From Streptomyces sp. NBC_01142 (GTDB lineage: Bacteria; Actinomycetota; Actinomycetes; Streptomycetales; Streptomycetaceae), in assembly GCF_026341125.1 (NCBI RefSeq), contig NZ_JAPEOR010000003.1:1426001-1490000 (forward strand): a stretch of DNA of 64,000 nucleotides. The letters are read 5' to 3'. The position numbers were made by a program, and so were the translations under genes. Below the pieces are notes generated by a model. It did not search any database. It was not told the origin of the DNA and worked only from the letters and a program-made list of their open reading frames with translations. Below, piece after piece: positions 3,983-62,720 of the stretch (position 1 is the stretch's first letter; the number at the start of each line of letters is the position of its first letter).

Positions 3983-4963
3983 TCACCACCAGATCCGGAA
4001 CGGCTTGTACGGGGCGCCCTCCAGACAGTGGCGGGTCAGGGCTAGCGCGTCGAGGTAGAGCAGTTCGTCGTACGCGACGCTCCGACCGAGGCTCCGGTGC
4101 GCGACGGTAACAGCGAATTCGTCGCGCACGGTCTGGACCACCAGCTTGCGGCCTGCTTCGGCGAGCATCGCCTGGTTGCTCTCGCGGTCGAAGTGGTGTT
4201 CCTTGAGCTGGTTGCGGCCGGCCATGCGTAGCATGAGCCGTTCAGCGAAGAGCGGTTTAAACATCTCGGACAGGTCCAGCACCAGGGAGTGCCGCTGCCG
4301 TTCCATGCTGCTGTGGAGGAAGGCGATTCCGCTGTGCAGCGGGGTGAGGCGTACGGCGGTGAGCAGTCTCGCGTACGTGATGCCGTTGACGTAGCTGATG
4401 AACGCGTTGCCGGCGTTCTTCGGCGGTCGGCGGCTGCGGCCGCCGAGCTGCAGCCAGTCGGGGAGCTTGGTGTCCACGACTTCCCAGGCGGAGCGGCGGA
4501 AGGTGCCCTCCGCTCCCATGAGCTGCTCCGGGCTCCGGGCTCCGCCGATGGACTCCTGCAGCACTTTGTACGGACGGGCCAGGAGCTTGCGGTCGACGAC
4601 CCGGCGGACGTTGAACGCGCAGGAGTCCACGATGCTGCGGGCGATCTCCATGCTGGCCTTGGGGTCCTCGGCGGTTCTGGCCTGGGCGAGGACGGTCTCT
4701 CCGGAGGTGCTGGTCTCCGACGTGAGAAGTGAACCGGCGTAGTCGCCGTAGTAGCTGAGCAGGTGGACGTTGATGCGGTGCCGGTTGAGCAGTGAGACCA
4801 CCGAGGTGTTGATGTCGACCTCGGCGCAGGCGACGATGTCGCGGACGTCGGTGATGGGGATGTGGACGTTGTCGGCGTTCTCGCGCTCGATAATTAGCGA
4901 CTGATCTTTTCGGCGGATCCGGCAGGGGCTGGTAAGCCAGTACGTACGGGCAGCGGTGGGCAT
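3983..4963 (-). CDS. cas1: CRISPR-associated integrase Cas1 (type I-B)
   Basis: Cas1, 326 residues, the catalytic subunit of the spacer-acquisition complex. The N-terminal beta domain (YWLTSPCRIRRKDQSL) precedes the helical catalytic domain. There NAGNAFISYVNGITYA is the first metal-ligand region, GIAFLHSSMERQRHS carries the conserved His, and LVLDLSEMFKP carries the acidic residues. Cas4 ends only 1 base upstream and cas2 starts 7 bases downstream, so acquisition genes are clustered at the end of the operon. It appears intact. Confidence 0.96.
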   Translation of the reverse strand: MPTAARTYWLTSPCRIRRKDQSLIIERENADNVHIPITDVRDIVACAEVDINTSVVSLLNRHRINVHLLSYYGDYAGSLLTSETSTSGETVLAQARTAEDPKASMEIARSIVDSCAFNVRRVVDRKLLARPYKVLQESIGGARSPEQLMGAEGTFRRSAWEVVDTKLPDWLQLGGRSRRPPKNAGNAFISYVNGITYARLLTAVRLTPLHSGIAFLHSSMERQRHSLVLDLSEMFKPLFAERLMLRMAGRNQLKEHHFDRESNQAMLAEAGRKLVVQTVRDEFAVTVAHRSLGRSVAYDELLYLDALALTRHCLEGAPYKPFRIWW

Positions 4964-24769: not shown

Positions 24770-25697
24770 GAGCGTGTCTGAGATCCGCCGTATCGGCTGT
24801 ATGGGTGACTCGTTGAGTGGTGTGTGAGTGCTGCTGGGGATGGTTACCCGTCTGATCTGACGGATGAACAGTGGGCGTTGATTGAGCCGTTGCTGCCTGC
24901 TCCAAGGACGGGTCGCAAGGGCGGGCGGCGGGAGAAGCACCCGCGTCGGCGGATCGTGGACGCGATCTTGTACTTGGCGCGGACCGGGTGCCAGTGGCGG
25001 TATCTGCCCAAGGATTTCCCGCCCTTCCAGACGGTGTACTGGTACTTCACCTGGTGGCACGACGACGGCACCGTGGAGCGCGTCCACGACGCGCTGCGGG
25101 TCAAGGTCCGCGAGGCCGACGGCCGTTCCGCTGAGCCGTCCGCGGGCCTGGTCGACTCGCAGTCCGTGCGGGCGGCCGACACGGTGCCGAAGTCCACCAG
25201 CGGCTTCGACGCGGGCAAGAAGACCAAGGGCCGCAAACGGTTCATCGTCACCGACACCCTCGGCCTCCTCCTGGCCGTGCACGTGCTGGCCGCAAGCGTC
25301 CAGGACCGCGACGGAGCCAAGCGCTCCCTGCTGTGGACCCGCCTGGACCACCCAACCATCGAGAAGATCTGGGCCGACCAGGGCTTCGCCGGCCGACTCG
25401 TCGAGTGGTCCTCTGCCGTCTTGCACCGCACGCTGGAGATCGTCCGCAAGGACCCCGGACAGCGCGGCTTCAAGGTCCAGCCGAAGCGCTGGGCGGTGGA
25501 GCGCACGTTCGCCTGGATCACCACACGCCGCCGCCTGGCCTGCGACTACGAACGCAACCCGGCCCACTCCGAAACCATGATCCGCTGGGCCATGACCGAC
25601 CTGATACTCCGCCGACTCACCCGAGGCCGACCCGCCACCCGCCAAGGACCCCGACCACTACGGAAAATCACCCCGTAACCCGATCTCAGACACGCTC
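24770..25697 (+). mobile_element. IS5-family (IS1031-like) element, copy A
   Basis: Terminal inverted repeats start gagcgtgtctgagatc and end gatctcagacacgctc. The element is flanked by the 3-bp duplication tca (24767-24769 and 25698-25700), which fits the TNA target of IS1031-like elements. Length is 928 bp. An identical-length copy in inverse orientation is at 26812-27739. Confidence 0.92.
24824..25678 (+). CDS. IS5-family transposase, copy A
   Basis: Transposase of 284 residues from GTG 24824 (MSAAGDGYPSDLTDEQW), the first start inside the element. The N-terminal SDLTDEQWALIEPLLP, the GLVDSQSVRAAD catalytic block, and the C-terminal WAVERTFAWITTRRRLACDYE (DDE-E motif) are typical of IS5/IS1031-type enzymes. 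The protein is identical to that of the inverted copy at 26831-27685. It appears intact in a single frame. Confidence 0.95.
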   Translation: MSAAGDGYPSDLTDEQWALIEPLLPAPRTGRKGGRREKHPRRRIVDAILYLARTGCQWRYLPKDFPPFQTVYWYFTWWHDDGTVERVHDALRVKVREADGRSAEPSAGLVDSQSVRAADTVPKSTSGFDAGKKTKGRKRFIVTDTLGLLLAVHVLAASVQDRDGAKRSLLWTRLDHPTIEKIWADQGFAGRLVEWSSAVLHRTLEIVRKDPGQRGFKVQPKRWAVERTFAWITTRRRLACDYERNPAHSETMIRWAMTDLILRRLTRGRPATRQGPRPLRKITP

Positions 25698-25756: not shown

Positions 25757-26350
25757 ATGACGAAACTGAAGACGATAGGCATAGGCATAGCCGCCGCCGC
25801 AGTGCTCGCCGGTGCCGCTCCCGCAAACGCCGTGCCCGAGCAGCGCCACAAGACCGTAGCTTCCTCGGTGTCTCAAGAAGAGCTGGCCGATATCCTTGGC
25901 CAGCTCCGAAGCAAGAACATCCCCCAGGGCGCCGGAAGCCTCACCGATCTCAAGGCACTAGCTGAGAGGTCGCCTGCGGCGAAGGCCAAACTGCCCAAGT
26001 GTCGAGGCACCTTCAGGCACGCGGTCGGCAAAGTCACCCTCCAGGAGTCCAAGAAATACGGCATCCCCTGGGGGCTGAAGCTGTCCAAGCGGATGGCCCC
26101 CCAGGGCATCATCCGCCTTAAGGCCCAGATCTTCGCGAACAAGCGAGAGGCCAACGTCTACCAACCCCACACCGAACCGTGGAACTACCATTTCCATGGC
26201 CCGCTTCCCCGGACGTTCAACCCCAAGGGCAAGGCGAAGAAGTACACTATCAAGCGCGGCGACGAAGTGTCCTTCCTATGGACCTGGAAGTCCGTCAGCA
26301 AGCCCAAGTCCGGGGGGGCCCGGTTCGTCAACTGCCGATTCAGCGCCTGA
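25757..26350 (+). CDS. Secreted protein of unknown function (IS-flanked cargo)
   Basis: 197 residues from ATG 25757, preceded by gggtaggcgg. The start is a clear Sec signal peptide (MTKLKTIGIGIAAAAVLAG, cleaved near PANA-VPEQ). The mature part has an early helical stretch (SQEELADILGQLRSKNIP), then a basic C-terminal half with two Cys (LPKCRG and FVNCRF) that could form one disulfide. I do not recognise the family. It lies between the two inverted IS5 copies, 18 bases before the next gene. Confidence 0.75.
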   Translation: MTKLKTIGIGIAAAAVLAGAAPANAVPEQRHKTVASSVSQEELADILGQLRSKNIPQGAGSLTDLKALAERSPAAKAKLPKCRGTFRHAVGKVTLQESKKYGIPWGLKLSKRMAPQGIIRLKAQIFANKREANVYQPHTEPWNYHFHGPLPRTFNPKGKAKKYTIKRGDEVSFLWTWKSVSKPKSGGARFVNCRFSA

Positions 26351-26368: not shown

Positions 26369-26764
26369 GTGCCGCTGTCCCCTGAAGAAGTATTCGCCCC
26401 TCTCGCCCATGACCTGGAGGTCTGCGGGCTCACCAGCCGCCTCCTCCACGGAGCACCCGGGGTGCAGAACCCTGACGCCTGGAGGGTGCTAGTCGTCAGC
26501 GGGGTGAAAGTGGGGACACTGGAATTCGATGAGGAACTGAGCACGGAAACCCTGGGCATGGCCCTTTGGCCGGTCGCCTTCGCCACACAGGCGGCCATCC
26601 TGGAGAACGCCCAACTCCTGTCCGGCGCCGTATGGCCGAGATGCCACACCGGCCACCGTCATCCCATGGAGCTGTCCCAGGAAGGGGAGCACGACTGGCC
26701 CGCCTGGAGCTGCCCGAAGAACCCCCCCTACCGGCGCCCGGTAGGGCAGCACCCAGGCCCGTGA
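26369..26764 (+). CDS. Small protein of unknown function (IS-flanked cargo)
   Basis: 131 residues from GTG 26369, with ggaggg a few bases upstream. It begins PLSPEEVFAPLAHDLEVCGL and has a hydrophobic centre (MALWPVAFATQAAILENAQ). A possible metal site near the end includes Cys and His (PRCHTGHRHPM, then WSCPKN). It may be cotranscribed with the secreted protein 18 bases upstream. No family recognised and no function proposed. Confidence 0.65.
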   Translation: MPLSPEEVFAPLAHDLEVCGLTSRLLHGAPGVQNPDAWRVLVVSGVKVGTLEFDEELSTETLGMALWPVAFATQAAILENAQLLSGAVWPRCHTGHRHPMELSQEGEHDWPAWSCPKNPPYRRPVGQHPGP

Positions 26765-26811: not shown

Positions 26812-27739
26812 GAGCGTGTCTGAGATCGGGTTACGGGGTGATTTTCCGTAGTGGTCGGGGTCCTTGGCGGGTGGCGGGTCGGCCTCGGGTGAGTCGGCGG
26901 AGTATCAGGTCGGTCATGGCCCAGCGGATCATGGTTTCGGAGTGGGCCGGGTTGCGTTCGTAGTCGCAGGCCAGGCGGCGGCGTGTGGTGATCCAGGCGA
27001 ACGTGCGCTCCACCGCCCAGCGCTTCGGCTGGACCTTGAAGCCGCGCTGTCCGGGGTCCTTGCGGACGATCTCCAGCGTGCGGTGCAAGACGGCAGAGGA
27101 CCACTCGACGAGTCGGCCGGCGAAGCCCTGGTCGGCCCAGATCTTCTCGATGGTTGGGTGGTCCAGGCGGGTCCACAGCAGGGAGCGCTTGGCTCCGTCG
27201 CGGTCCTGGACGCTTGCGGCCAGCACGTGCACGGCCAGGAGGAGGCCGAGGGTGTCGGTGACGATGAACCGTTTGCGGCCCTTGGTCTTCTTGCCCGCGT
27301 CGAAGCCGCTGGTGGACTTCGGCACCGTGTCGGCCGCCCGCACGGACTGCGAGTCGACCAGGCCCGCGGACGGCTCAGCGGAACGGCCGTCGGCCTCGCG
27401 GACCTTGACCCGCAGCGCGTCGTGGACGCGCTCCACGGTGCCGTCGTCGTGCCACCAGGTGAAGTACCAGTACACCGTCTGGAAGGGCGGGAAATCCTTG
27501 GGCAGATACCGCCACTGGCACCCGGTCCGCGCCAAGTACAAGATCGCGTCCACGATCCGCCGACGCGGGTGCTTCTCCCGCCGCCCGCCCTTGCGACCCG
27601 TCCTTGGAGCAGGCAGCAACGGCTCAATCAACGCCCACTGTTCATCCGTCAGATCAGACGGGTAACCATCCCCAGCAGCACTCACACACCACTCAACGAG
27701 TCACCCATACAGCCGATACGGCGGATCTCAGACACGCTC
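26812..27739 (-). mobile_element. IS5-family (IS1031-like) element, copy B, inverted
   Basis: Same 928-bp length and ends as copy A but in the opposite orientation. It is also flanked by tca on both sides (26809-26811 and 27740-27742). The two copies face each other across a 1.1-kb cargo. The right-hand tca supplies the stop codon of a prepilin-peptidase remnant. Confidence 0.92.
26831..27685 (-). CDS. IS5-family transposase, copy B
   Basis: 284-residue transposase from GTG 27685, with the same sequence as copy A, including the LVDSQSVRAAD and WAVERTFAWI catalytic blocks. The perfect identity of the two proteins implies recent duplication or gene conversion. Either copy could supply enzyme to mobilise the outer ends as a unit. 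Confidence 0.95.
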   Translation of the reverse strand: MSAAGDGYPSDLTDEQWALIEPLLPAPRTGRKGGRREKHPRRRIVDAILYLARTGCQWRYLPKDFPPFQTVYWYFTWWHDDGTVERVHDALRVKVREADGRSAEPSAGLVDSQSVRAADTVPKSTSGFDAGKKTKGRKRFIVTDTLGLLLAVHVLAASVQDRDGAKRSLLWTRLDHPTIEKIWADQGFAGRLVEWSSAVLHRTLEIVRKDPGQRGFKVQPKRWAVERTFAWITTRRRLACDYERNPAHSETMIRWAMTDLILRRLTRGRPATRQGPRPLRKITP

Positions 27740-42319: not shown

Positions 42320-43640
42320 TCAATAGGTCGGTCCGTAAGGGCTCCAGTGCCCGAGGAAGGGCCTTAGGTCGTCGGCTCGCGGCTCTGGAACGTCGGGCAA
42401 CCGGGGTGGTGAGCTCAGCGGGTCGAGGCGCTCGACTGTGGCCGCTGCCCAGCAGATCCATGCTTCGGCGTCGGTTCTGACCTGCCCCGGCGGCATGGCC
42501 TCGACTCGCGCGCGCACGGCGCTCACGTACTCCGTCAGCCGAGTGGCGTGGCGCCAAGCCGCTTCCTGCGCTTCGAAGTGCCTGACGCGGTACGCCTCCG
42601 CGTACCGGATGCGGGCTTCTTCCATGGCGGCTTCCCAGCGGATGCGCTTCTGACGTGCCGCTTCGGCCTCGTCCTGGCGTCTGCGTTCGGCGGCTTCGCC
42701 GCGGAGCGTGACCTCTTGGGCGATCTCGGCGAGCTGCTCTTCGAGGGAGCGGCCCGGGGCGTCGGCCCATTCGCTCGCCCGGTGCGGCTGGCCGCCGCTG
42801 AGGACGAAGCGGAGCCGCTCGGACGGGGTGTAGTCGTAGCGGGGGATCCTGACCCAGGAGTCCTTCTTGGTCGCGGCGAGTTCCTTCTCGGTGGCGACGT
42901 GCTCGGCCCGGTCCTGTTCCTGGAGGAGAAGGAACCCCACGGTCTGGCCCTGTGCGGTCAGGGTGAAATGGGGAGATGCCCTGCGGCGGCGATGAGACGG
43001 GGGAGCGAAGCCGGGCCGTCCAGCAGAAGTGGAATGTCCTATGGCCTCGGCAGCGGTGATGAGCGCCTGGATGAGCCGGAGGGCACGTCCTTGGACGGGC
43101 TTCGTGAGGCCCAGCGGTTGGGTTTCGCTCTGCATGGCCTGTACCACGGTGTGCGGATGCGCGAGCCGCGCTGGCACAGGGACGGGTTCGAGGACGGCAA
43201 GGCGCCAGGCGGGGATGTCGACGAGCTTGATCTCGTACCCGCCACGGCACCAACCCCCGTATAGCTCCTTCGTCTCCGGGACCCTTCCGGACCTACGTGC
43301 CGCGGCGACGCGGGACGGCCACTTCTCCAAGTCCGGGCCGCTGCCGCTCTTGACGATCCTGCCGCCGGCGTCCGCAAGCTCCTGCAGCAGCTGTTCCGTG
43401 AACGTCATACGAGGCTGTGATGGAGGGCTTGACGTCCGCCCGGTGGCCGGAGTTTCGTGCGCTCGGGGGGACCGGGGTCGTGGAGCGGTGGCCTGGGTCT
43501 TGGGCGGGCGTGACCCGCGGGGAGGGTACGTGCCGTGCGCCAGGTAGTGCTGGCCTGCACTCGTCAGGGCGACGCTCCACTGCCCGGCCTTCCGGGAGAC
43601 CGTGACCAGGCCCCGGTTCTGCAGTGCCTGAGAGGTGGTC
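42320..43640 (-). pseudogene. Unknown Streptomyces protein, 5' end removed by IS701-type insertion
   Basis: The frame from ATG 43408 (MTFTEQLLQELADAGGRI) gives 362 residues. However, it stays open upstream to the IS boundary, reading TSQALQNRGLVTVSRKAGQW and ALTSAGQHYLAHGTYPP, a winged-helix-like segment that should belong to the same protein. The gene therefore lost its start when the IS elements at 43645-45896 entered. A long charged helical part lies in the C-terminal half (EAERRRQDEAEAARQKR-like, RYAEAYRVRHFEAQEAAWRH). A shorter product from 43408 may still be made. Family unknown to me. Confidence 0.6.
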
Positions 43641-48069: not shown

Positions 48070-48594
48070 TCAGCCACTGAGCTCCGCGCGCAACCGTTCG
48101 TTCTCCTTCTCCAGCGTCTTAAGGCGTCGTTCGAGTTCGGCTCGTGTCGGCTTCTTCGGGGGTGCTGGAGGTAGGGGCTCTGTTGCTTCCGGTGGCTCGC
48201 CACGCAGTCCGATGGGTTCGAAGGCCACGATTGTTTGCCGGTCTTTCCCACACTCAGAGCATCGCCTGCCGTATGACCCGGCCGAGAGGGGGTCGGGATA
48301 CGTGTAGTGCGCCTCCGTCTCGATGATGTGGCCGCAGTACAGCCGGACACGCCACCGCATGATCTCGTGGTCGGCCTTCTTAAAGGACTGCATCAGCTTC
48401 GCGACGTTCTCGAACGCCTGGCGACGACGCTCCGTCCTCTCCGGATCTGCACGGCACTTGGCGTCGTCCTCCTCGACCTGACGCCGAGCCCACTCGCTGA
48501 TCTCCTCGCTCTGCTTCTGACGGCGGTGGTCCCCGCGCGTGAGTTCATACTCCTCCAACGGAACCCCGCTGCTCCGGTACTCGACTTCGCGCAT
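48070..48594 (-). CDS. Coiled-coil protein with a zinc-ribbon-like centre
   Basis: 174 residues from ATG 48594 (MREVEYRSSGVPLEEYELT); an upstream in-frame start at 48651 is possible. A charged helix (SEEISEWARRQVEEDDAKCR) leads to a central CGHIIETEAHY and RRCSECGKDR, which could bind one zinc. The C-terminus is a heptad-like coiled coil (RAELERRLKTLEKENERL). No family recognised. Confidence 0.6.
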   Translation of the reverse strand: MREVEYRSSGVPLEEYELTRGDHRRQKQSEEISEWARRQVEEDDAKCRADPERTERRRQAFENVAKLMQSFKKADHEIMRWRVRLYCGHIIETEAHYTYPDPLSAGSYGRRCSECGKDRQTIVAFEPIGLRGEPPEATEPLPPAPPKKPTRAELERRLKTLEKENERLRAELSG

Positions 48595-48868
48595 GACGGC
48601 AAGCGTAGAAGCGGCGTCCACGCGGCTGTGGAGAAGATCGGTCTTGATCAACCAGCTCGCGGATTCTGCCCATGAGTGACCGCCGGAGTGTGTACTGGCC
48701 CAGAGGGCCGGGATGGTTGTTCGGATTTGCGGTCACAGGAATCGCTGCGGGCTGTCTGGTGAGTTCCCGCCATTTAGCCGGTTTTGATCAATCGGTGGCT
48801 CGGCACTGACGCTGTTGGGCAGTATGCCGTCCTGGGGCATTGTCGGTTGAGAGAACCGGAGGGGGAAC
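48595..48868. other. Upstream region of the GNAT gene
   Basis: About 270 bases without a gene. It should contain the promoters of the two diverging genes, but I cannot place clear boxes. A good ribosome binding site (ggaggggg) lies just before 48869. Confidence 0.4.
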
Positions 48869-50929
48869 ATGGCGATCAGAGTGCTGCCGGTGTCTGCGGA
48901 ACAGCTGGAGTTGCTGGACGCGGTTGTCGCTTTGGGCGACCGATACACGAAGTATCTGGGTCTGCTCACACCGCCTGCCTACCGTAGGCACGCCGAGGAC
49001 GGCGGCCTGCTGGTAGCTGTGGATGACGAGGAGGTCGTCGGTTACGCGCTCTTCGGGCTGCCTAAGCGGAGTCTGTATGTTCGTCTGGCTCATTTGTGCG
49101 TGGCCGAGGAGCATCGAGGCAGGGGTGTTGCTCGTGAGCTGATCGAGGCGATCCGCGCGCGGCATACTCATCGGCTTGGTATTCGTGCGAAGTGTCGGCG
49201 CGACTATGGGCTCAGCGGTATGTGGACCGCGCTGGGCTTTGTTCCCAAGGGTGAGAGCCTGGGGCGGGGCAAGGACAAGGAGACGCTGGACACCTGGTGG
49301 CTCGACCTTGGGCACGAGGATCTGTTCACCGAGGCCCAGAGTGATGCGCTGCTGGTGGTGACCGTCGACCATGGCGTGTTCGCCGGGCTGCGCGGTGCGG
49401 GTACGGAGCGCGCGGTTGCGGAGTCGCGTGCTCTCGAAGCGGGGTGGCTCGCCGACCTGATCGAGCTCGCGTTTACTCCGCAGCTTCTGCACGATGTGCG
49501 TGATGTCGAGGAGCGTGAGGCGCGCAACCATCAGCGTGCGGGGCTTGCCGAGTTGCGGTCACTGTCTCCCGACAGCGTTGCCGTGGCCATCCGCTTGGAG
49601 GAACTGGCCGCGGCGGTGAGAAAGGAGCTGCCTGATGTCCCCCTCGATGGCTGGCAGCGCGCCCGCTTGCGCTACGTGGCCGAGACGTCGTGTGCCGGGC
49701 TCCAGGTGCTGGTGACGCGCGATCCCGCACTGGCGGCTCTGGCGGACATCGCCTGGGATGTCGCACGGGTCAAGGTCGTCTCGCCGGCTGTGGTCACGCT
49801 GCATGTGGACGAACTGCGCCAGGCCCAGGTGTACCGTCCTGCGGATCTCATGGGCACTGCTTTCTCCGCCGAGGAGATCGCGCCAGGCGGTGAAGGAGAG
49901 CTGGTCGCCTTCTTCGACCAGGCCGAGGGCGACCGTGGAACGGGCTTCGCGGAGCGGCTGAAAAGCCTCGCCAATGACGGGGTGCTGTGGCGCAGGGAGT
50001 TGCTCCGGGACGGAGAGGGGTATCCGGTGGCCCTTTACGTCTGGGCGATGGACGGCCGCACGTTGAACGTCGCGTTCCTCCGTACGGCGTCGCACCTGCT
50101 GGAGGAGACACTTGCACGGCAACTGCTGTTCATGCTCAAGCGGCTTGGCCGGGAGCGAGGGGCGCAGGCGGTCCGTATCACCGATCCGTTCCTGTCGCCG
50201 ACGGCGATGGCGGCTGCCGGCGCCGACGGTTTCACCGAGGACGAGAGCGGCTTCACCGCACTCCTGGTCGACGTCTGCGGACCTGCTGAGGCGGTCTCGG
50301 AAAAGGCCGCGGAGATCGCGGGCCGGATGAGGCGGTCGACGCCACGGCTGGGTGATCGCGTGTCGCCCGAGATCGCGAGCATGGCCGAGCGGGTGTGGTG
50401 GCCGGCTAAACTGACCGACACGGCCCTGCCCTCCTTCATCGCACCCATCAAGCCGCGCTGGTCCACGGAGCTCTTCGACATTCCGGCCATGCTCGTTCCC
50501 CGGGACGACGTACTGGGCATCAGCCGCGAGCACGTCTACTACCGCTCGTCCGGACACCGAGGAGAAAGCGTTCCCGCCCGGATCCTGTGGTACGTCAGTG
50601 AGGGGACTTCCGGGCAGCAGGGCAAGATGGTCATCGGCTGCTCGCGCCTCGACGAGGTGGTCATCGACGACCCCGACACCCTCTTCTCGAGATTCGAACA
50701 CCTTGGCGTATATGGTCATGCCGAAGTGCGTGCCGCAGCCGATGTGTCGGGCAAGGCCATGGCGTTGAGGTTTTCGGACACGGAGATCTTTCCCGTACAG
50801 GTGACGCATGCACGAATGACCGCGTTGGCCAAGGGGCTGGGACTACGGTGGGTACCGCCGATGCAGCTGTCGAAGATCAGCAACACGCTGTTCCAGGCCA
50901 TGTACGAAGAGGGGCACCGAAAGACGTGA
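48869..50929 (+). CDS. GNAT - PIN-like - PUA/ASCH-like fusion protein
   Basis: 686 residues from ATG 48869 with a strong ribosome binding site. About 1-150 is a GNAT acetyltransferase (LAHLCVAEEHRGRGVARELI with the RGRGVA acetyl-CoA loop; YGLSGMWTALGFVPKGESL). About 165-330 looks like a PIN-type nuclease (VTVDHGVFAGL with an Asp, LVTRDPALAALADIAWD with an Asp, VVSPAVVTLHVDEL). Another acetyltransferase-like segment may lie in 330-480 (FLRTASHLLEETLARQLLFM). The last 150 residues (HVYYRSSGHRGESVPARILW; KMVIGCSRLDEVVIDDPDTL) resemble an EVE/ASCH/PUA nucleic-acid-binding fold. The stop overlaps the ASCH gene. A toxin or defence role is inferred. Confidence 0.75.
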   Translation: MAIRVLPVSAEQLELLDAVVALGDRYTKYLGLLTPPAYRRHAEDGGLLVAVDDEEVVGYALFGLPKRSLYVRLAHLCVAEEHRGRGVARELIEAIRARHTHRLGIRAKCRRDYGLSGMWTALGFVPKGESLGRGKDKETLDTWWLDLGHEDLFTEAQSDALLVVTVDHGVFAGLRGAGTERAVAESRALEAGWLADLIELAFTPQLLHDVRDVEEREARNHQRAGLAELRSLSPDSVAVAIRLEELAAAVRKELPDVPLDGWQRARLRYVAETSCAGLQVLVTRDPALAALADIAWDVARVKVVSPAVVTLHVDELRQAQVYRPADLMGTAFSAEEIAPGGEGELVAFFDQAEGDRGTGFAERLKSLANDGVLWRRELLRDGEGYPVALYVWAMDGRTLNVAFLRTASHLLEETLARQLLFMLKRLGRERGAQAVRITDPFLSPTAMAAAGADGFTEDESGFTALLVDVCGPAEAVSEKAAEIAGRMRRSTPRLGDRVSPEIASMAERVWWPAKLTDTALPSFIAPIKPRWSTELFDIPAMLVPRDDVLGISREHVYYRSSGHRGESVPARILWYVSEGTSGQQGKMVIGCSRLDEVVIDDPDTLFSRFEHLGVYGHAEVRAAADVSGKAMALRFSDTEIFPVQVTHARMTALAKGLGLRWVPPMQLSKISNTLFQAMYEEGHRKT

Positions 50930-51405
50930 GTGATCCGGAGCGCGCGATGCTGCTGTCCGTCCACCCTCGGTTTGCCACGGCGATCCTGGCTGGGACCAAG
51001 ACGGTCGAGGTTCGCCGGCAGCGCGTCGCCGCCCCACCGGGAACTCCTGTGCTCCTGTACGCGACCGCGCCCACGATGGCCATTGTGGGCATGGCGCGGA
51101 TCTCTTCCGTGCAGGTGGCCTCGCCGCGGGAGGTCTGGTCGGCCAACCGCACGAGCGCTGGGATCAGTCGGCGTGAGTACGACGAGTACATGAGTGGAGC
51201 GACCCAGGCCAGCGGTCTGTCTCTCGAAGAACCGATCACCTTCGAGGCCCCGGTACCGCTGGCCGCCCTGCGAGCCTCGGGATCGTTCCATCCGCCGCAG
51301 AGCTACCGGTACTTGACCGGTGAAGACCTCCGGAAGGTCGCTGAGGCGGCACCGGTGACCGGGGCGGCCCTTCAAGGCGCATGGAACGACCTGACACCGG
51401 CCTAG
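50926..51405 (+). CDS. ASCH-domain protein
   Basis: 159 residues from GTG 50926, overlapping the GNAT-PIN gene as GTGA. The N-terminal part is a clear ASCH/PUA-like signature: MLLSVHPRFATAILAGTKTV, EVRRQRVAAPPGTPVLLYAT, and MAIVGMARISSVQVASPREV. ASCH domains bind RNA or modified nucleotides. The overlap makes it an obligate partner of the upstream fusion protein: possibly an antitoxin, or the specificity part of a two-gene system. Confidence 0.8.
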   Translation: MSDPERAMLLSVHPRFATAILAGTKTVEVRRQRVAAPPGTPVLLYATAPTMAIVGMARISSVQVASPREVWSANRTSAGISRREYDEYMSGATQASGLSLEEPITFEAPVPLAALRASGSFHPPQSYRYLTGEDLRKVAEAAPVTGAALQGAWNDLTPA

Positions 51406-51882: not shown

Positions 51883-54800
51883 TCACAGCAGGTACGAGAA
51901 GCGCAGTGCCCCGCCCTCCTCGCGGTAGCGGCCCCGGCCGCGCTTTCCGTAGGGGTTGGGGAGCATCTGGATGGCCATCTTGTGAGGGGTGAGGGCGTGT
52001 GTGACCACCAGAAGGCGCCAGCGGTCGTTGCCCGCGTGCTGGCGGGCCGCGCGGACCTCGCTTTCTCCCAGCTCGAAGCGGCCGCCTTCGCCTCCGGTCG
52101 CCTTCACCTCGTACAGGTAGGGCCGGCTGCCGGAGCCGACCCGGAAGTCGAAGCCGAGGCCGTCGTCGCCGGACGGGCCGGGGAAGGCTTTGCGGCGGTT
52201 GCCCGACACCCAGCCGGTCTCGTCCATGCGGTCCGGGTAGCACGCACACAGCCACTGGTACGCGTACCACTCGCCCACGTAGCCGATGGCCTCCCGCTGG
52301 GCCGTGGTCAGCCCGCTCTCCGTGCCGCCCCCGTACCGCCGCCCGCGCGTGTGACTGCTGGCCTGGGTGCGCCCGGTCTGGCGACGGGGGTCCGTGAAGC
52401 GGAGCGGCCCGGCGGCGGTGATGCCCGGCGCCGAGCCGCTCTGCATTACCCGGTCGAGTTCGCGGGTGAGGGCGGTGAAGTCGCCTGAGTGCACGTCGAA
52501 GTCGCGGCCGCCGACGGAGATCGACCGCCGTTTGCGCTCCCGTTCGCGGCGCTCGTGTTCCGCCGCGTTGCGCACCCGGTCCAGGTCGCCCTCGGACAGC
52601 CCGTGCCGTTCGGGATCCGTTGCCATCGCCATCCCGTCGGGCCACTGGCCGAGGGCCGCAAGCCAGCCGACGACGTCGGTGGGGGACAGGGGTCGGAAGT
52701 CCAGCGTGCCTGCGGCTTCCAGCCGCGCGGTGACCTCCTCGGCGGGCTCGACTCCGGTCAGGGCCGTGGGCAATGGGTGTCCGGCAGCCCTGACCAGGAC
52801 CGCGAGGTCGGCGGCCAGGCCGGTGATCGTACGGAGGTTCGCGCCGCGTACCTGGTCAGGGGCGGGCAGGCGTTCGCCTGACCGGGGCAACGGCACCGAG
52901 CGGCCCAGGCGCAGCGCCAGCTGCTCCTCCACGTGCGCCTCCAGGCTCCTCGTGTCGGCCGTGTCCACGGTGTACTCCCATGCCTCCGGCGCGGTGATCC
53001 AGTCCAGGGCCCGGACCGAGGGCCAGTCGGGCATCGGACGGCGCGCGTCGAAGTCCTCCAGCACCGCCCAGCGCAGCCGGTTGACGAGCTCCTTCTTGCG
53101 CAGGTCCAGGTAGGTGCGGAGCGCTTCCTCGTGCTCGGCGGCGTGGCTGATCGGTTCCAGTGGTGGGCTCATCGCGCGCAGGGTGTCGTTCAGCTCGGCG
53201 AATCCGATGCCCAGGTCGCGCCGCAGTTCGTCCGTACTGCGGGCCGCTCGGGCCCTGGCGATGAACTCGGGTACGGGGACCGGGAGCTCGGCGGCGTACT
53301 CCTCGAGGTGAGCCTGGAACTCCCGGGTGTCGCCCGGCGGCGGCAGGAACAGCGAGTTCGCCGCCTCCGTGCCGAGCAGGTGAACGAGGAAGGGCCGGCA
53401 GCGCTCTAGGACCACGCCGATGGCCCCGTCGATCCGGCGGCTCGTCTCCTCGACCTGGTGGACCGTGACTTCCAGGGCGTCGGCGAGTTCCTCCTGGCCC
53501 GGGTCGCGCAGGTCGGCGTGGCGGGAGGCGAGCTGGTGGGCGGCGAGGCGCAGCCGGTCGCCGAACTCCCGCCGTCCCAGCAGCTCGGCGAGCGCCACCA
53601 CGATGCGGGTGGTCTCGGGCCAGCCCGGCTCGCCTGCCGGGGAGAGGACGAGCGGATGCTTCGGATCGGGCAGCGGCAGCACTCCGCCGAGGCGGCCCGG
53701 CAACGTCACGGGCCGGCCGTCGAGCTCGATGTCCCAGGAGCGGTAACGGTGCAGACGTACGCTCCGGACCAGGGACGTCAGCTCGCTCAGCTCGGCCTCG
53801 CTCGCCCGGGGGCCGCGCGCCAGGTGGTCGCAGAGGACGCCCACGGCCAGCGTGAGCCAGGGCAGCTGCTGGACCAGTGGCTCTCCCATGGCCGCGTGGT
53901 CCACCCGTGCGCCGTCCACGGTCACCGTGAACGTCAGGTCGTCGGTGTGCCGGACGGTGGCGGGGTGTTCGGCCGCCAGCAGCTCGGCGGCCTCCGCCGA
54001 GACACCGGGAAGGGTGAGTAGGGGGCGCGCCATCTCCCGTACCAGCAGGGCCGTCAGGCCGTCGCGTTCACCGCTGACGTAGAGCACGGTCGTGGCATCA
54101 CCATCGCCATGGCTCTGCCCGCCGTCCAGGGCGGACAACGGTACGCTGATCAGCCGGTCCTCGGACTCAGCGAGCAGACTGGCGCCCTCGGGCAGTGCAG
54201 GACGGGGCCGCCGTACGAGGTGCCTCCAGGCACGTTCGTTGGCGCGCTGCGCGGCGGGCCGGTCCTCGGCCCCCAGCGCGCCCTCCGCCGCGAGCCGTCC
54301 CAGCGCGGCGATGAGGCGGTCGCTGTCCTGGGGGTCGTCCCAGGTCGGCAGCCGCATTTCCCGCAGGCGGTCGCCCGCCTTCCCGCGTTCCAGGAGGTGG
54401 CGCAGCCGATGGTCGACGGTCGGCGCGTACGAGGGCTCCTCCTCCAGCCCGGGCGGGCAGTGCCAGGCGTCGGCCGGCCGGACGAACCGGACGGCCCGGT
54501 CGCGGCCCCGCACCGGGAGCCACGGCTGCTCCCGGACGAAGGCTCCGAGCGGGGTCGGGACCTGTTCCGTGTCCGGGGAATTCTGGCTGCCGGCACTGGT
54601 CCAGACGCTGGTGAACCTCGTGTCGTTCCAGCTGGCCAGGCCGTGCAGGACGAGCCGTGCGTACGCCAGCCGGGCCTCCTGGTCGAGGCGTCCGACGACG
54701 TCCTGGCCGGGGAGCTGCCAGGCGGGGGTTCCCCGGTACGGCGTCCGGGGGTAGTAGGCACCGGACCAGTTGCGGACGTACGGCTCCCACTGCTCCTGCA

Positions 54801-57309
54801 CCTCGGCAGACACCTTCGCCATGCGGACCAGCTGCCGAGCGGTGAGCTCCCGGCCTTGGTCTACCCGGCTCAAGGCGTTGGGGGATCTGACCGGGACCAG
54901 CCCGTCGGCCACCCCAGCCTCCAGCAGGAACGCCCGCCACTCCTCAGTCTCGCCCCGCTTGGCGAACTCCTCGGGCGCGGCGAGGAGGCGTCCGGCGATC
55001 GCCTTGAGGCTCTTCGACACGTCCTGCCCGGCGGCGACCACCGCCGCCAGGTCCTCACCGACGGACGTGCGGCCCCAGCCCCGGCCGAAGACGGCGCCGC
55101 TCGCCCTGATCAGCCGGCCGTCCGCCGACGGTACGTACAGGCCGAGCGTGGAGATCTCCGTCCCGCCCAGCGAACGCCGCGGCTGCCACAGCCGGAAGAC
55201 GAACCGCAGGGTCTGGAGCCGCAGTCGGAGATCGGTGCTCGCGCTGAGCGCCTGCCGTACATGGTCCAGCAGGCCCCTCGTGTCGTACGGCCGGACGAGC
55301 CCCTCCTGCTCGAGGAAGGCGCGGGCGGCCCGCCCGCGCGTACGCTCGCCGCGGTCCTTCCAGACCAGCCCCGGGTGTAGGGAGAACAACCGCTTGCCGA
55401 GCAGGGCGGGGACGGACGGGGCCTCGGTCTGGTTCGCCTCCGTACGCACCGGCTGGAAGAACGCCTCGCGGCGGGCACCCTGACCGCTCGGCTTGCCCTG
55501 TGCACGCGTGCTTGTGCCCGTACCCGCCCTGTCGAGGGGACGGTTGGTGTGCCGCAGTGTGCAGTCCTCCGCGAGCAGCAACTGCCTGCCGTGCAGGACG
55601 TGCCCGTCGTCTTCGAAGAGGGCGGCCAGGTCCTTGTAGAGCGCGCTCCACTGCTCGGGGGACTCACCGGGCCGGGGGAGGGGAAGGCCCCCGACGATCC
55701 GTTCCACGTACGCGGCGAGGATCTCCGGGCCCGGCTCCCACGGGCACGCGAGGGCCTTGCACAGAGTGGCCAGCCGTTTCAGCCGGTCGCCGCCGATCTC
55801 GGGGTCCGCCACCACGATCCCGGCCTCGTGCGCGCGGTGTGCCGTGAGAACGGTCAGGTCGAGGTTCGGCCACAGGACCGCGCCCCGGGGCGGGGCCCAG
55901 CTCGTCTCCGGCGGGGCGCCGTTCGCGGCGAGGACGGGCACGAGCGGTACGTCGGCGAGTTCGCTCCCGTGCACGCGCAGAGCCGCCGCGCGGAGCCGCC
56001 CCGCCGAGCCCTTCTCACTCTCCCAGCTCATCAGGTCCGCGGCCAGCTGCCGCATTGACGGCTCGGGCACGGTGCGCAGCGCCGCGGCGGCCGCCAGACA
56101 GGTCTCGGCGACCGCGTCGAGCAGCAGCACGTTGAGGGGGTTGTCGGAGGGAAGCCCGGTGCGGTCGAACTTGGTGAAGAACGGGGCGTTCACGTGTCCC
56201 GGGAACGGCGCGGCCTGGTCCTCGCCCATCGGCAGGAAGGTGTAGATCTGCCCGCGTCGCGGTCGGCGCGGGGCGGGCAGCGGGAGCGCGACCTCGACGA
56301 CGGCGGACCGCTTCCACTCCTGCCACGTGTCGTCGAGGAGCCCGGAACCCACGGCCTCGGCGAGGGTGCTGTTCAGCCGTTCCTTCTCCACGGTGCCCCG
56401 GGCTACGAGAAAGGTGCCGGACGGCCCCAGGTCCACGGTCGCGCAGGAGACGGGGAGTCTGTGCCCGGCGCCGTCCTGCGCAACCGCGAAGCGCTTCTCG
56501 GAGCGGGTCAGTTCGTGCCGCTCGTGCGCCTCGTGGCGGTCGTCCAACTCGCCTGCCTCGCCACCGGCGGCCCGTCGTTCCAGCGTCAGGCCAGCGAGCC
56601 GGTCGAGGAACAGCATCACGGGTACCTTCGCCTCCGCGAGCTCGCGCATCCGCAGCCGGACCTCGGCCCGGGCGGCCTCGCTCAGCAAGGGCAGCCGGAC
56701 GATGGTTACGTACCCCTGGGCGGCGAGCTGCCGACAGGTCGCGGGCACATCGTCCAGCGGCAGGGGCGCCTGGAGCGGTGGATACTTGGCGGCCACCTCG
56801 TGGGCGTTGTCCTCACCGGCGAGGAACTCCTCCACGTCGACCTTCTGCGCGAAGCGGAAGCAGTACCCGTCCAATTCCGGGCCGAGCGGGCTGTCGGGGT
56901 CTGCGCTGTAGATCTCGGGTGCCTCGCTGATCAGCAGGATGCTGCGGAACCCGACGCCCTTGTTCCCGATGCCCTCGCCGACTTCCTTCGAGCTCTGTGC
57001 GAGCTCGCAGACCCGCTCGACGTCCCGCCAGGTGAAGGGCGTGCCGCCGTTGGCGACGTACAACGTCCCCCACTCGCCCTCCGCCTCGTCCAGCAGGAGG
57101 TGGACCCGTCCGTCGCGGCGGTTCCTCGGATGCGCGTCGTAGCCGTTCTGCAGCAACTCGAAGAGCGAGCGGCCGGCGTACTCCCGTGCGCTCGTGTACG
57201 ACACGGCGTTCACCTGCCGTGCCATGCGCAGGACTTGCTCCGACCGAGCCCCCTCCAGCACGGACCGGCCGTGCTCCCGCAGCTGCTCGGCCCGGGCGTT
57301 CCTCGCCAT
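51883..57309 (-). CDS. Giant GHKL-ATPase / DUF3883 (NOV) protein, candidate defence gene
   Basis: 1808 residues from ATG 57309, with gagggga upstream. The N-terminus is a sacsin/HSP90-like GHKL ATPase: RSLFELLQNGYDAHPRNR (N box), YVANGGTPFTWRDVERVC, and EGIGNKGVGFRSILLIS (G2 box). The middle (about 300-1600) has no domain I can name. The last about 150 residues form a DUF3883/NOV nuclease-like domain (AIGYVGEWYAYQWL; GLGFDFRVGSGSRPYLYEVK with the D...E-x-K pattern of restriction-type nucleases). Similar ATPase-nuclease proteins are often found beside restriction or anti-phage genes. It stands alone, convergent with the GNAT-ASCH pair. It is probably cytoplasmic; defence is inferred. Confidence 0.8.
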   Translation of the reverse strand: MARNARAEQLREHGRSVLEGARSEQVLRMARQVNAVSYTSAREYAGRSLFELLQNGYDAHPRNRRDGRVHLLLDEAEGEWGTLYVANGGTPFTWRDVERVCELAQSSKEVGEGIGNKGVGFRSILLISEAPEIYSADPDSPLGPELDGYCFRFAQKVDVEEFLAGEDNAHEVAAKYPPLQAPLPLDDVPATCRQLAAQGYVTIVRLPLLSEAARAEVRLRMRELAEAKVPVMLFLDRLAGLTLERRAAGGEAGELDDRHEAHERHELTRSEKRFAVAQDGAGHRLPVSCATVDLGPSGTFLVARGTVEKERLNSTLAEAVGSGLLDDTWQEWKRSAVVEVALPLPAPRRPRRGQIYTFLPMGEDQAAPFPGHVNAPFFTKFDRTGLPSDNPLNVLLLDAVAETCLAAAAALRTVPEPSMRQLAADLMSWESEKGSAGRLRAAALRVHGSELADVPLVPVLAANGAPPETSWAPPRGAVLWPNLDLTVLTAHRAHEAGIVVADPEIGGDRLKRLATLCKALACPWEPGPEILAAYVERIVGGLPLPRPGESPEQWSALYKDLAALFEDDGHVLHGRQLLLAEDCTLRHTNRPLDRAGTGTSTRAQGKPSGQGARREAFFQPVRTEANQTEAPSVPALLGKRLFSLHPGLVWKDRGERTRGRAARAFLEQEGLVRPYDTRGLLDHVRQALSASTDLRLRLQTLRFVFRLWQPRRSLGGTEISTLGLYVPSADGRLIRASGAVFGRGWGRTSVGEDLAAVVAAGQDVSKSLKAIAGRLLAAPEEFAKRGETEEWRAFLLEAGVADGLVPVRSPNALSRVDQGRELTARQLVRMAKVSAEVQEQWEPYVRNWSGAYYPRTPYRGTPAWQLPGQDVVGRLDQEARLAYARLVLHGLASWNDTRFTSVWTSAGSQNSPDTEQVPTPLGAFVREQPWLPVRGRDRAVRFVRPADAWHCPPGLEEEPSYAPTVDHRLRHLLERGKAGDRLREMRLPTWDDPQDSDRLIAALGRLAAEGALGAEDRPAAQRANERAWRHLVRRPRPALPEGASLLAESEDRLISVPLSALDGGQSHGDGDATTVLYVSGERDGLTALLVREMARPLLTLPGVSAEAAELLAAEHPATVRHTDDLTFTVTVDGARVDHAAMGEPLVQQLPWLTLAVGVLCDHLARGPRASEAELSELTSLVRSVRLHRYRSWDIELDGRPVTLPGRLGGVLPLPDPKHPLVLSPAGEPGWPETTRIVVALAELLGRREFGDRLRLAAHQLASRHADLRDPGQEELADALEVTVHQVEETSRRIDGAIGVVLERCRPFLVHLLGTEAANSLFLPPPGDTREFQAHLEEYAAELPVPVPEFIARARAARSTDELRRDLGIGFAELNDTLRAMSPPLEPISHAAEHEEALRTYLDLRKKELVNRLRWAVLEDFDARRPMPDWPSVRALDWITAPEAWEYTVDTADTRSLEAHVEEQLALRLGRSVPLPRSGERLPAPDQVRGANLRTITGLAADLAVLVRAAGHPLPTALTGVEPAEEVTARLEAAGTLDFRPLSPTDVVGWLAALGQWPDGMAMATDPERHGLSEGDLDRVRNAAEHERRERERKRRSISVGGRDFDVHSGDFTALTRELDRVMQSGSAPGITAAGPLRFTDPRRQTGRTQASSHTRGRRYGGGTESGLTTAQREAIGYVGEWYAYQWLCACYPDRMDETGWVSGNRRKAFPGPSGDDGLGFDFRVGSGSRPYLYEVKATGGEGGRFELGESEVRAARQHAGNDRWRLLVVTHALTPHKMAIQMLPNPYGKRGRGRYREEGGALRFSYLL

Positions 57310-60088: not shown

Positions 60089-61699
60089 ATGCTTTCCAAG
60101 ATCGTCATTCGCAACTACCGAATATTCCGGGACTTTACTCTCGACTTCGACCCCAAGATGAACATTTTGGTGGGGGACAACGACGCGGGTAAGTCGACGA
60201 TTCTGGATGCTATCGAGCTCGGCCTGACCGGTAAGCTGCGCGGGCGCCCGCTTTACCAGGACCTGTCGCCGTATTTGTTCCACCAAGATGCCGTTGCTGA
60301 GTGGATCGCAGCGTTGGAGGTCGGGCGCCCGGTTGTGCCTCCTGAAATCATCATCGACCTCTTCCTGGAAGCGTCCTCCGAGACGGCTGGCCTCAAGGGG
60401 ACTAACAACCTCCTGAAGGTAGATGAACCTGGCGTCCGTATCCGAGTCGCTTTGAACTCGGACTACGAGGCGGAGTACAAGGAGTTCATCAAGCGGCCTG
60501 ACAAGGTCCGACTGATCCCCACTGAGTACTACAAGGTTGAATGGCTTTCATTTGACGGGAACGGGGTCACGTTCCGCAGTATCCCGGCTACCGCTTCCTT
60601 GATCGATGCTGCCACCATCCACCTGCAAAGCGGTGTCGACTACTACATGCGACACATCTTGAATGACTATCTGGACGCAGACGAGCGCGTGAAACTGGCG
60701 CGGGCGTACCGCAGTCTTCGGGAGACCTTCGCAGAAGATGCTTCGATCGCAAGGATCAATGGGGACCTGCGAGGCGCCCCGAACGACGTCAGTGACCGCG
60801 AGCTGACTCTGAACATCGACGTCTCGCAGAAGTCGAGCTGGGAAAGTGGCATTGTGCCGCACCTGGACGATCTTCCCTACCAGTTCGTCGGCAAGGGCGA
60901 GCAGAGCACACTCAAAATCCTGTTAGCCCTCAATAAGAAGGTCGATGACGCGCATATTGTGCTCGTCGAAGAGCCGGAGAACCACCTCTCGTTCCCGAAC
61001 CTGGGCAAGCTGATCCGCAAGATCAGCGATAAGTGCAAGGACCGTCAGGTCTTCATCACCACGCACAGCTCCTTCGTGCTGAACAAGCTCGGACTGGAGA
61101 AGCTCGTCCTGCTGTCCTCCTCCGCAGGCGTCCGCCTTGATCGCCTTCCAGCCGGCACGCAGGATTACTTCCGGAAGCTTTCGGGATACGACACCCTCCG
61201 TCTAGTACTAGCGAAGCGGTCGATCCTCGTCGAGGGCCCGTCGGATGAACTGGTCATCCAGCGAGCCCACATGGACACGCATGGCGGCAAGCTTCCAGCT
61301 GAGAGTGGCATCGACGTCATCAACGTCCGCGGGCTCTCCTTCAAGCGGTTCCTTGATATCGCGATGCTGCTGCCGCAGAACATCGTCGCCGTTGTTACGG
61401 ACAACGACGGGAACGACGTCCGGGATGTACAGCAGCAGTACAGCCGGTATACCGCTCAACCCAACATCAGTGTCCACGTCGGCGAGGACGCGACGTACAA
61501 GACCCTGGAGCCGCAGCTGTTCAAGGTGAACGGACTCACTGATCTGAACGCCGTCCTCGGACAGAGCCACAGGACTGACACCGCCCTGCTCGACTACATG
61601 AGCAAGCACAAGACTGACTGCGCGCTGGCTATCTTCGAGAGCGACCAGACCATCACGATGCCGTCGTACATCACGGAGGCCATCGATGCGGTCTCTTAA
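60089..61699 (+). CDS. gajA: Gabija nuclease GajA (OLD-type ATPase with Toprim domain)
   Basis: 536 residues from ATG 60089, with aggggg upstream. N-terminal ABC-type ATPase: Walker A GDNDAGKST (29-37), then a signature region near YQFVGKGEQSTLKILLAL, and HIVLVEEPENHLSFPN as Walker B near 290-305. A C-terminal Toprim nuclease domain has SILVEGPSDELVIQRA (Glu) and NIVAVVTDNDGNDVRD (DxD-like). GajA assembles with GajB and cuts DNA when nucleotides are depleted by phage replication. Codon 279 is TTA (60923-60925), a possible bldA control point. Overlaps gajB by 14 bases. Lower GC suggests transfer. Confidence 0.92.
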   Translation: MLSKIVIRNYRIFRDFTLDFDPKMNILVGDNDAGKSTILDAIELGLTGKLRGRPLYQDLSPYLFHQDAVAEWIAALEVGRPVVPPEIIIDLFLEASSETAGLKGTNNLLKVDEPGVRIRVALNSDYEAEYKEFIKRPDKVRLIPTEYYKVEWLSFDGNGVTFRSIPATASLIDAATIHLQSGVDYYMRHILNDYLDADERVKLARAYRSLRETFAEDASIARINGDLRGAPNDVSDRELTLNIDVSQKSSWESGIVPHLDDLPYQFVGKGEQSTLKILLALNKKVDDAHIVLVEEPENHLSFPNLGKLIRKISDKCKDRQVFITTHSSFVLNKLGLEKLVLLSSSAGVRLDRLPAGTQDYFRKLSGYDTLRLVLAKRSILVEGPSDELVIQRAHMDTHGGKLPAESGIDVINVRGLSFKRFLDIAMLLPQNIVAVVTDNDGNDVRDVQQQYSRYTAQPNISVHVGEDATYKTLEPQLFKVNGLTDLNAVLGQSHRTDTALLDYMSKHKTDCALAIFESDQTITMPSYITEAIDAVS

Positions 61700-62720
61700 C
61701 AACCAGGCCATCATCGCGGCGGCCGGCTCGCGCAAGACCCAGCACATTATCGACCGGGTCCTCGGTGACCCGACGAAGCGGGTCCTTGTGACGACCTACA
61801 CCAATGAGAACCTCAGCCAGATCGTGAACAGGCTGAGCGAAGGCACCGGCATCCTGCCGAGTCACGTCACGGTCATGGGCTGGTTCACCTTCCTGATGAA
61901 CCAGTGCGCTCGCCCTTACCAGAGTTGCGTCCTGGGCGAGACCGGCCTGATGTGTGGCCTTAACTTCCTGGGGCAGCGGGCCCGGTTCACCCGCAAGGAC
62001 AAGCCGAAGCAGTACTACCTCGATACCGCTGGCGCCGTGTATCGCAATGAGGTCGCGGCCTTGGCGCACGAGGCCAACGAGCGAAGTGGTGGCAGGGTCG
62101 TGGACCGCCTTACGGGGATGTACGACCACATCTACGTCGACGAAATCCAAGATATGGCAGGGTACGACCTCGATCTACTGGACGCTCTGATGAAGTCGCC
62201 TGTCGGTCTCACGATGGTGGGTGACCCCCGACAGGCGACGTTCGCGACCAATACCGCCGCGAGGAACAGGCGGTACCGGGGAAGCGCCATCGTCGACTGG
62301 TTCAACGAGCGCGCGGACGTCTGCGTCATCGACAGCCGTGTGGAGAGTTTCCGCTGCAACCAGGCAATCTGCGACTTCGCAGACGACCTTTACCCGAAGC
62401 TGCCCCGCACCATCTCGAAGAACGCGGAACTGACAGGGCATGACGGCATCTTCGACATCCGAGGGTCGGACGTGCCGGGGTACGTAGCGCAGTACTCGCC
62501 GGTCGTATTGCGGTGGGACCGGCGTACCAAGACGGGCGATCTTGAGGCGATAAACATGGGTGCCTCGAAGGGCAGCACCTACGACCGGGTGCTCATCTTC
62601 CCGACGAAGCCCATGATCACCTACTACAAGAACCGCGACTTCAACGTCCTCAATGAGCAGGCGAAGTTCTACGTCGCAGTGACACGGGCGAGGCATAGCG
62701 TGACCTTCGTGCTGCCGTGA
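61686..62720 (+). CDS. gajB: Gabija helicase GajB (UvrD-like)
   Basis: 344 residues from ATG 61686, overlapping gajA. A short UvrD/Rep-type SF1 helicase: P-loop region IIAAAGSRKTQHI, in which Arg replaces the usual second Gly; Walker B YVDEIQDMAGYDLDLL; motif III VGDPRQATFAT; motif IV-like ESFRCNQAICDFA; motif VI VAVTRARHSVTF. The size is short compared with full UvrD proteins, as expected for GajB. Together with gajA it forms the Gabija anti-phage system. Confidence 0.9.
   Translation: MRSLNNQAIIAAAGSRKTQHIIDRVLGDPTKRVLVTTYTNENLSQIVNRLSEGTGILPSHVTVMGWFTFLMNQCARPYQSCVLGETGLMCGLNFLGQRARFTRKDKPKQYYLDTAGAVYRNEVAALAHEANERSGGRVVDRLTGMYDHIYVDEIQDMAGYDLDLLDALMKSPVGLTMVGDPRQATFATNTAARNRRYRGSAIVDWFNERADVCVIDSRVESFRCNQAICDFADDLYPKLPRTISKNAELTGHDGIFDIRGSDVPGYVAQYSPVVLRWDRRTKTGDLEAINMGASKGSTYDRVLIFPTKPMITYYKNRDFNVLNEQAKFYVAVTRARHSVTFVLP

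Follow-up and report, generated by a model that had tools for sequence, protein, structure and literature searches.

An overlapping GNAT-PIN-ASCH/ASCH gene pair of Streptomyces as a candidate mobile conflict module of the GevT/GevA kind

The window considered here is a 64,000-nucleotide stretch of the 10.1-Mb genome of Streptomyces sp. NBC_01142, a soil Streptomyces (the closest proteins carry Streptomyces names), within which positions 48,869-51,405 were studied. This segment contains two co-directional genes, designated A and B. With a probability of about 50%, they belong to the mobile two-gene conflict modules exemplified by GevT/GevA, i.e. a toxin-antitoxin or abortive defence system that would act by acetylation. 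We favour this reading because (i) B shows 39% identity (over 123 amino acids, E 2e-30) to the annotated antitoxin GevA, and the partner of the latter, GevT, is linked to A by profile, (ii) the pairing of the two genes is conserved, patchy and mobile, with the GNAT motif of A kept and the acids E205 and D266 of its PIN site replaced, and (iii) operons of (PIN)-GNAT-EVE and ASCH genes are predicted to be toxin-antitoxin systems in the accessible part of Bell et al. 2020 (PMC7641849).

Gene A (48869..50929, + strand) encodes a protein of 686 amino acids, in which a GNAT domain, a PIN fold, a GNAT-like domain and an ASCH/EVE-type barrel follow one another. Gene B (50926..51405, + strand; GTG start) encodes an ASCH protein of 159 amino acids, a homologue of GevA, PDC-M11B and ZmASCH. 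The stop codon of A (TGA, 50927-50929) and the start codon of B (GTG at 50926) overlap as GTGA (50926..50929, + strand). Both open reading frames and their overlap had been reported in an initial annotation, made from the sequence alone, and were confirmed at the same coordinates. A search for an inverted-repeat operator 5' of A yielded weak pairs only.

The product of B scored above the cut-off of the Pfam ASCH model (2.2e-5). The sequence GxKxxExR, which we take to be the ASCH signature, is represented in B by G23, K25, E28 and R30; in 80 B loci K, E and R were present in 80/80 and G in 67/80. B also matched the PADLOC model PDC-M11B (1.8e-30) and ZmASCH (ZMO0922, 5guq/5gus; 4.4e-16). According to the accessible part of its description, ZmASCH binds nucleic acid and cleaves single-stranded RNA with Mg2+, Tyr47, Lys53 and Ser128 being involved (PMC5615036). 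As placed by the B-ZmASCH alignment, the equivalent of Tyr47 is kept in 80/80 B proteins, whereas that of Lys53 is Met in 44/46 Streptomyces-type B proteins.

GevT and GevA are encoded by Escherichia phage PhiR47_2 (GenBank PV340567.1, an E. coli prophage record), where they are annotated as toxin and antitoxin. As in the A-B pair, the two genes overlap, the effector comes first, and the second gene encodes an ASCH protein. GevT is a GNAT-EVE protein of 357 amino acids, without the N-terminal GNAT and PIN part of A, and it matched the PIN-GNAT-EVE profile at 1.1e-34. A profile of A (45 sequences) was in turn collinear, over residues 162-682, with PIN-GNAT-EVE proteins of ~500 amino acids of the PDC-M11A type (E 3.8e-14; 1.1e-9 for the C-terminal part of A alone); these comparison proteins originate from a locus found by the PADLOC model PDC-M11A. 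The likeness of the pair to PDC-M11 consists in this collinearity and in the match of B to PDC-M11B. No literature on PDC-M11 was found in open-licence papers, and the PADLOC web-server paper contains no mention of 'PDC'.

The same domain order, with an adjoining ASCH gene, characterises the operons described by Bell et al. 2020 (PMC7641849). In the accessible part of that paper, the PIN forms neighbour restriction systems, the GNAT-EVE forms are found in prophages, CRISPR settings also occur, and the modules are called experimentally uncharacterised. The profile comparison likewise found PIN, GNAT-like and EVE-type parts in this order in A, next to an ASCH gene. The window's pair differs from these operons in two respects: A has an additional intact GNAT in front, and its C-terminal barrel is structurally nearest to ASCH, with no Pfam EVE match. 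Neither 'Streptomyces' nor 'two GNAT' was found in the accessible text of that paper. The known GNAT toxins AtaT, TacT and KacT offer a further parallel, since the available parts of the literature describe a GNAT fold acting as toxin in a two-gene unit and acetylating aminoacyl-tRNA (PMC7595197, PMC9177977). Their antitoxins are of the DUF1778 kind (PMC9177977), whereas the partner of the four-part A protein is an ASCH protein.

The initial annotation was aware of no named defence or toxin system composed in exactly this way; systems of the same kind nevertheless exist in GevT/GevA, PDC-M11 and, as far as the accessible text goes, the (PIN)-GNAT-EVE operons with ASCH genes. Judged from its sequence, the pair belongs to a described kind, the acetyltransferase/ASCH gene pairs, of which it is an enlarged form because an extra intact GNAT stands in front. 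A toxin-antitoxin function, at first listed as one option, gains support from the annotation of GevT/GevA and from the prediction of Bell et al.

The N-terminal domain of A (residues 1-150; 48869..49318, + strand) exceeded the Pfam cut-off for GNAT (best 1.3e-9, residues 38-106). It combines the GNAT fold with the acetyl-CoA motif R/QxxGxG/A, here R83-x-x-G86-x-A88, which was well retained among 64 Streptomyces-type sequences (R83 in 63/64, G86 in 60/64, A88 in 62/64), and the domain looks intact. The structure search with the full-length model of A returned a list filled by GNAT structures, the best GNAT matches being N-terminal protein acetyltransferases. C109 and R110 were invariant in 48/48 relatives across several phyla. 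They open a Cys-Arg-x-Asp sequence (residues 109-112, window positions 49193-49204) with a possible catalytic or RNA-binding role; we know of no GNAT motif that matches it at this position.

The PIN fold (residues 155-340; 49331..49888, + strand) emerged from the relatives of A and from the predicted model. PIN_3 matched 20/48 aligned relatives at E<=0.1, and the strand/helix order of the model, interpreted from the DSSP string, is that of PIN. The Pfam PIN models gave no match to the window's A protein itself, and the PIN profile retrieved no PIN chain from the PDB sequences. Positions 167, 205, 266 and 285, placed by alignment, presumably correspond to the usual four PIN acids; A has D167, Q205, R266 and D285 there, an incomplete set compared with that of an active, VapC-like PIN nuclease. 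Among 31 sequences outside the Streptomyces type, position 205 is E in 29, and position 266 is D in 19 and E in 4, while 0/14 Streptomyces-type sequences have an acid at either site. When 64 sequences of the latter type were inspected, position 205 was Q, R or Y in 64/64 (E being absent) and position 266 was R, C, S, G or H in at least 62/64; D167 was retained in 64/64 and D285 in 57/64. Since two of the four acids are replaced, the PIN domain of the Streptomyces lineage is probably no longer a nuclease, and the output of the pair would be acetylation rather than cutting.

The PIN-like nuclease fold of the initial annotation thus stands as a fold within residues 150-340, but not with a complete acidic site, and the suggestion that the pair recognises foreign nucleic acid and cuts it is not supported for the Streptomyces lineage, because only D167 and D285 remain. 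We consider it very unlikely that the window's pair is a restriction-type nuclease, whose readers would recognise modified or foreign nucleic acid for cleavage by PIN. Such a function would agree with the presence of the fold in the expected place, with D196 and E272, both invariant in the Streptomyces clade (64/64), and with the complete acid quartet in 17/19 non-streptomycete loci without McrB; the loss of E205 and D266 throughout nearly the whole clade of the window argues against it.

A second, degenerate GNAT-like domain (residues ~331-480; 49859..50308, + strand), absent from the initial domain list, was recognised from the collinear profile match, the consensus and the strand/helix order. 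The family consensus has no RxxGxG/A motif in this domain, which when compared alone gave a weak, non-significant match to the PIN-GNAT-EVE profile. The C-terminal ASCH/EVE-type barrel (residues 490-686; 50336..50926, + strand) was remodelled with distant relatives, the first full-length model being poor beyond ~residue 520; the new structure and a fold search bore out the barrel, with ZmASCH as the nearest fold. The C-terminal profile gave non-significant matches only against PDB sequences (ZmASCH among them at E 0.8), and the C-termini of 48 relatives contained no Pfam EVE match. Domain profiles, model and fold search together agree with the GNAT-PIN-PUA/ASCH composition proposed at the outset. 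From their fold and family, the C-terminal barrel of A and protein B would both be nucleic-acid readers.

In cyanobacteria the pair is joined by genes of McrBC. A McrB-like gene follows B in 15/20 cyanobacterial loci (with one intervening gene at L116 and L128), and a McrC-like gene comes next after McrB in 12; one representative of each was tested (McrB versus 6hz4, E 1.6e-48; McrC, 6.9e-6). Across 34 non-streptomycete loci, the PIN quartet was incomplete in 14/15 loci with McrB versus 2/19 without it. The corresponding Fisher p of 1.6e-6 does not count independent events, because McrB changes state only twice on the tree (a quick tree calculated without the PIN columns), which corresponds to 1-2 independent McrB/PIN pairs. 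The losses vary by branch (with Q, L, Y, K or N at position 266, N or H at 285 and A at 167), and in these alignments the PIN site looks as if it has been under relaxed constraint since the arrival of McrBC. A different pair of residues (205 and 266) was lost in the Streptomyces clade, without any McrBC. On a Calothrix plasmid (L051, 5799-13503), genes of a cytosine methyltransferase and an Eco29kI-type endonuclease lie directly upstream of A-B-McrB-McrC, so that a methylating system is paired with a methyl-dependent one.

Two further explanations draw on these operons. The first, which we put forward tentatively and do not think probable, is a modular immune system, in which a reader-acetylate core (GNAT-PIN-GNAT'-ASCH/EVE + ASCH) would work with an exchangeable destroyer: its own PIN in most phyla seen, and McrBC, recruited with repeated decay of the PIN site, in cyanobacteria. 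Streptomyces, with neither a PIN nor a McrBC destroyer, would then have an acetylation-only form of defence. The second, a nucleic-acid modification, is unlikely. Here the GNAT would acetylate a DNA or RNA base selected by the readers, as a self-mark or as a block on the invader, as proposed by Iyer et al. (cited in the accessible part of Bell et al., PMC7641849). The presence of two reader-type domains in one unit, and of McrBC, a reader of modified DNA, downstream in cyanobacteria, would fit this proposal; the structure matches to N-terminal protein acetyltransferases, which leave the substrate unsettled, and the absence of any base acetyltransferase among the matches, do not.

The distribution of the pair was analysed in a wide scan, from which the best 80 of 191 confirmed matches in named genomes gave 78 loci. 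In these best 80 matches the full-length form was found mostly in Streptomycetaceae (47 loci) and cyanobacteria, and also in Kribbella, Sanguibacter, Marmoricola, Chloroflexi, Planctomycetota, Verrucomicrobia, Nitrospirae, Gammaproteobacteria and other assemblies. It was present in 3 plasmid-collection records (Nostoc, Calothrix, Prevotella) and in none of the phage records scanned; B-like ASCH genes were detected in 27 phage records. Pairing was counted over 81 loci (L050-L130): B adjoins A at 80/81 of them, the exception being L098, with a shortened A, and A is broken or split also at L067, L093, L096 and L100. The GTGA overlap was observed in 45/46 Streptomycetaceae loci holding B (L096, with its broken A gene, is the exception). 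In the other 34 loci, a 4-base overlap occurs in 9/34, the nearest in-frame start lying -11 to +22 from the stop of A, and once +117. The PADLOC model of B, applied to 200 genomes of the family, found 13 B genes, that of the host included, with A upstream in 13/13 as far as the flanks reach. The conserved two-gene unit anticipated earlier is well supported by these counts. A reversed order was noted on a Rhizobium etli plasmid (L173, 3530-6514), where a helix-turn-helix-ASCH gene overlaps a GNAT-annotated gene of 512 amino acids, followed by a small AAA ATPase.

Within Streptomyces the pair was detected in 19/295 species genomes, and its identity within the genus is 64-95%. This identity, and the fact that dcd and a tRNA gene adjoin many of the copies, would be compatible with a core or metabolic role in modifying RNA or in the work of the ribosome, without relation to conflict. 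We find such a role hardly credible, given the small share of genomes, the plasmid and phage relatives and the integrase that adjoins the pair at the dcd site; that presence tracks mobile elements and not the species tree is largely seen already.

A related tyrosine integrase was identified in 13/47 Streptomycetaceae loci (two are short fragments), its end lying within ~200 bases before the aligned start of A in 12 of the 13, and a relaxase was found in 8/47. Another recurrent neighbour, tRNA-Gly(CCC), is located ~0.2-4 kb after B in 15/39 scanned loci; integrase and tRNA-Gly occur together in 11 loci. This arrangement would be that of integrative-element cargo, and the pair looks mobile. In the window, Gabija (GajA/GajB) lies at 60089-62720, beyond a TmtA-type gene (51883-57309, - strand) and transposases. 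The pair had originally been placed between a CRISPR locus and Gabija; the latter was confirmed, but the placement is loose because cas1 (3983-4963) is 44 kb away. Other loci are near DISARM drmMI or drmA (two copies), a type I methyltransferase, Wadjet, a type I restriction endonuclease, a DruE-type helicase or a second TmtA gene. Together with the integrases, plasmids, prophage relatives and McrBC operons, these neighbours support a mobile/defence setting.

Neighbouring defence genes were compared in 14 pair regions of 20 kb, taken from those 14 of the 19 pair-bearing genomes that have long contigs, and in 14 control regions located elsewhere on those contigs; the scan covered 179 neighbours, with A and B excluded, and 202 control proteins (E 1e-20). 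In the first half of the pair side the matches comprised TmtA, Wadjet, type I restriction endonuclease, pAgo, PprDinG, DruE and PDC-S18 (25 of 71 families listed); in the second half there was only TmtA, the window's own, and 6/7 regions had no PADLOC hit at 1e-20. With pAgo and PDC-S18 left out of the locus assignment, defence genes were assigned to 5/14 pair regions (L131, L132, L135, L136 and the window's own L142). The control side, pooled and not resolved by locus, contained DpdF, PsyrT, C3a193, BrxH, three mad3 matches and DinG. The Streptomyces loci were also grouped by shared flanks, but this grouping (one group of 25/47, with B's own cluster in the count) was not used.

These data bear on a rival which we regard as possible, though clearly not the probable one: a selfish module that maintains integrative elements, plasmids and prophages by addiction or stabilisation, with the same toxin-antitoxin chemistry, the upkeep of the element as its benefit and no anti-phage role. 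It is favoured by the 11 loci with an integrase upstream and tRNA-Gly downstream, the relaxases, the position of GevT/GevA next to cI in a lambda-like phage, and the second-half regions free of PADLOC hits. Gabija and TmtA beside the window's copy, McrB downstream of most cyanobacterial copies and the DISARM genes near two copies speak against it.

Several points weigh against a conflict module of the GevT/GevA kind acting by acetylation. Addiction without immunity fits the mobile setting equally well, and in Streptomyces the defence genes around the pair show no significant enrichment, the result being suggestive in a sample too small to decide. A misses the PDC-M11A model (E 0.05, residues 512-646 only), in which it differs from PDC-M11, and PADLOC would therefore not call the pair; across 296 genomes from the phylum this model retrieved only two loci of full length, and it gave no match in the host's own genome. 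Direct comparison of GevT with the A profile was not significant (Prob 8, E 0.004), and the toxin label of GevT comes from the GenBank record only, no paper on it having been found in the open-licence literature. Moreover, it is to the second, degenerate GNAT of A that the GNAT of GevT is equivalent, and GevT is hence no guide to the activity of the first one. Finally, D196 and E272 could rebuild a metal site in the PIN domain.

If the GevT/GevA-like reading is correct, A would be the effector (toxin), and B, an ASCH protein translated together with it, the antitoxin or regulator. The release of A would be triggered by nucleic acid that invades the cell or is wrongly modified, or by the loss of B, and the N-terminal GNAT of A would then acetylate a target and stop growth; we infer toxicity, trigger and substrate alike, and by analogy with other GNAT toxins charged tRNA, at its aminoacyl end, would be the likeliest target. 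Cutting may be supplied by a complete PIN in other lineages and by the adjoining McrBC in cyanobacteria.

Some other features of the window and its relatives were recorded. A divergent gene for a protein of 193 amino acids (48070-48651, - strand), with no Pfam match, lies immediately upstream of A, and has counterparts of 80-91% identity beside the pair in L053, L054, L098, L131, L132 and L143. The TmtA-type protein has 1808 amino acids and weak matches to Sacsin and to NO VEIN C-terminal; in another Streptomyces a relative of 30% identity (L132:822-6266) lies <10 kb from the pair, and a literature search for TmtA/DUF3883 gave no pertinent paper among the matches listed. An uncharacterised protein of 362 amino acids (42320-43408, - strand) has relatives encoded near the pair in the closely related Streptomyces loci L053, L054, L060, L080, L098, L132, L133 and L143; it was rejected as a third component, since it is present in 85/291 Streptomyces genomes. 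Two transposase genes (24824-25678, + strand; 26831-27685, - strand), identical base for base and inverted, flank two small open reading frames (25757-26350 and 26369-26764) in an arrangement resembling a composite transposon.

As far as the open-licence literature shows, three findings are new: the four-part form and the range of phyla in which it occurs, the contrast within A between a retained GNAT and a worn PIN site, and the operons with McrBC. Through the A-B pair, one family comes to include a prophage toxin-antitoxin pair that is annotated but for which no paper was found in this literature, a defence candidate proposed by computation, and ZmASCH, whose structure is known; the pair also contributes a form missed by the PADLOC model. 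Given the retained GNAT, the worn PIN site and the operons with McrBC, the role of acetylation in such systems can be put to the test.

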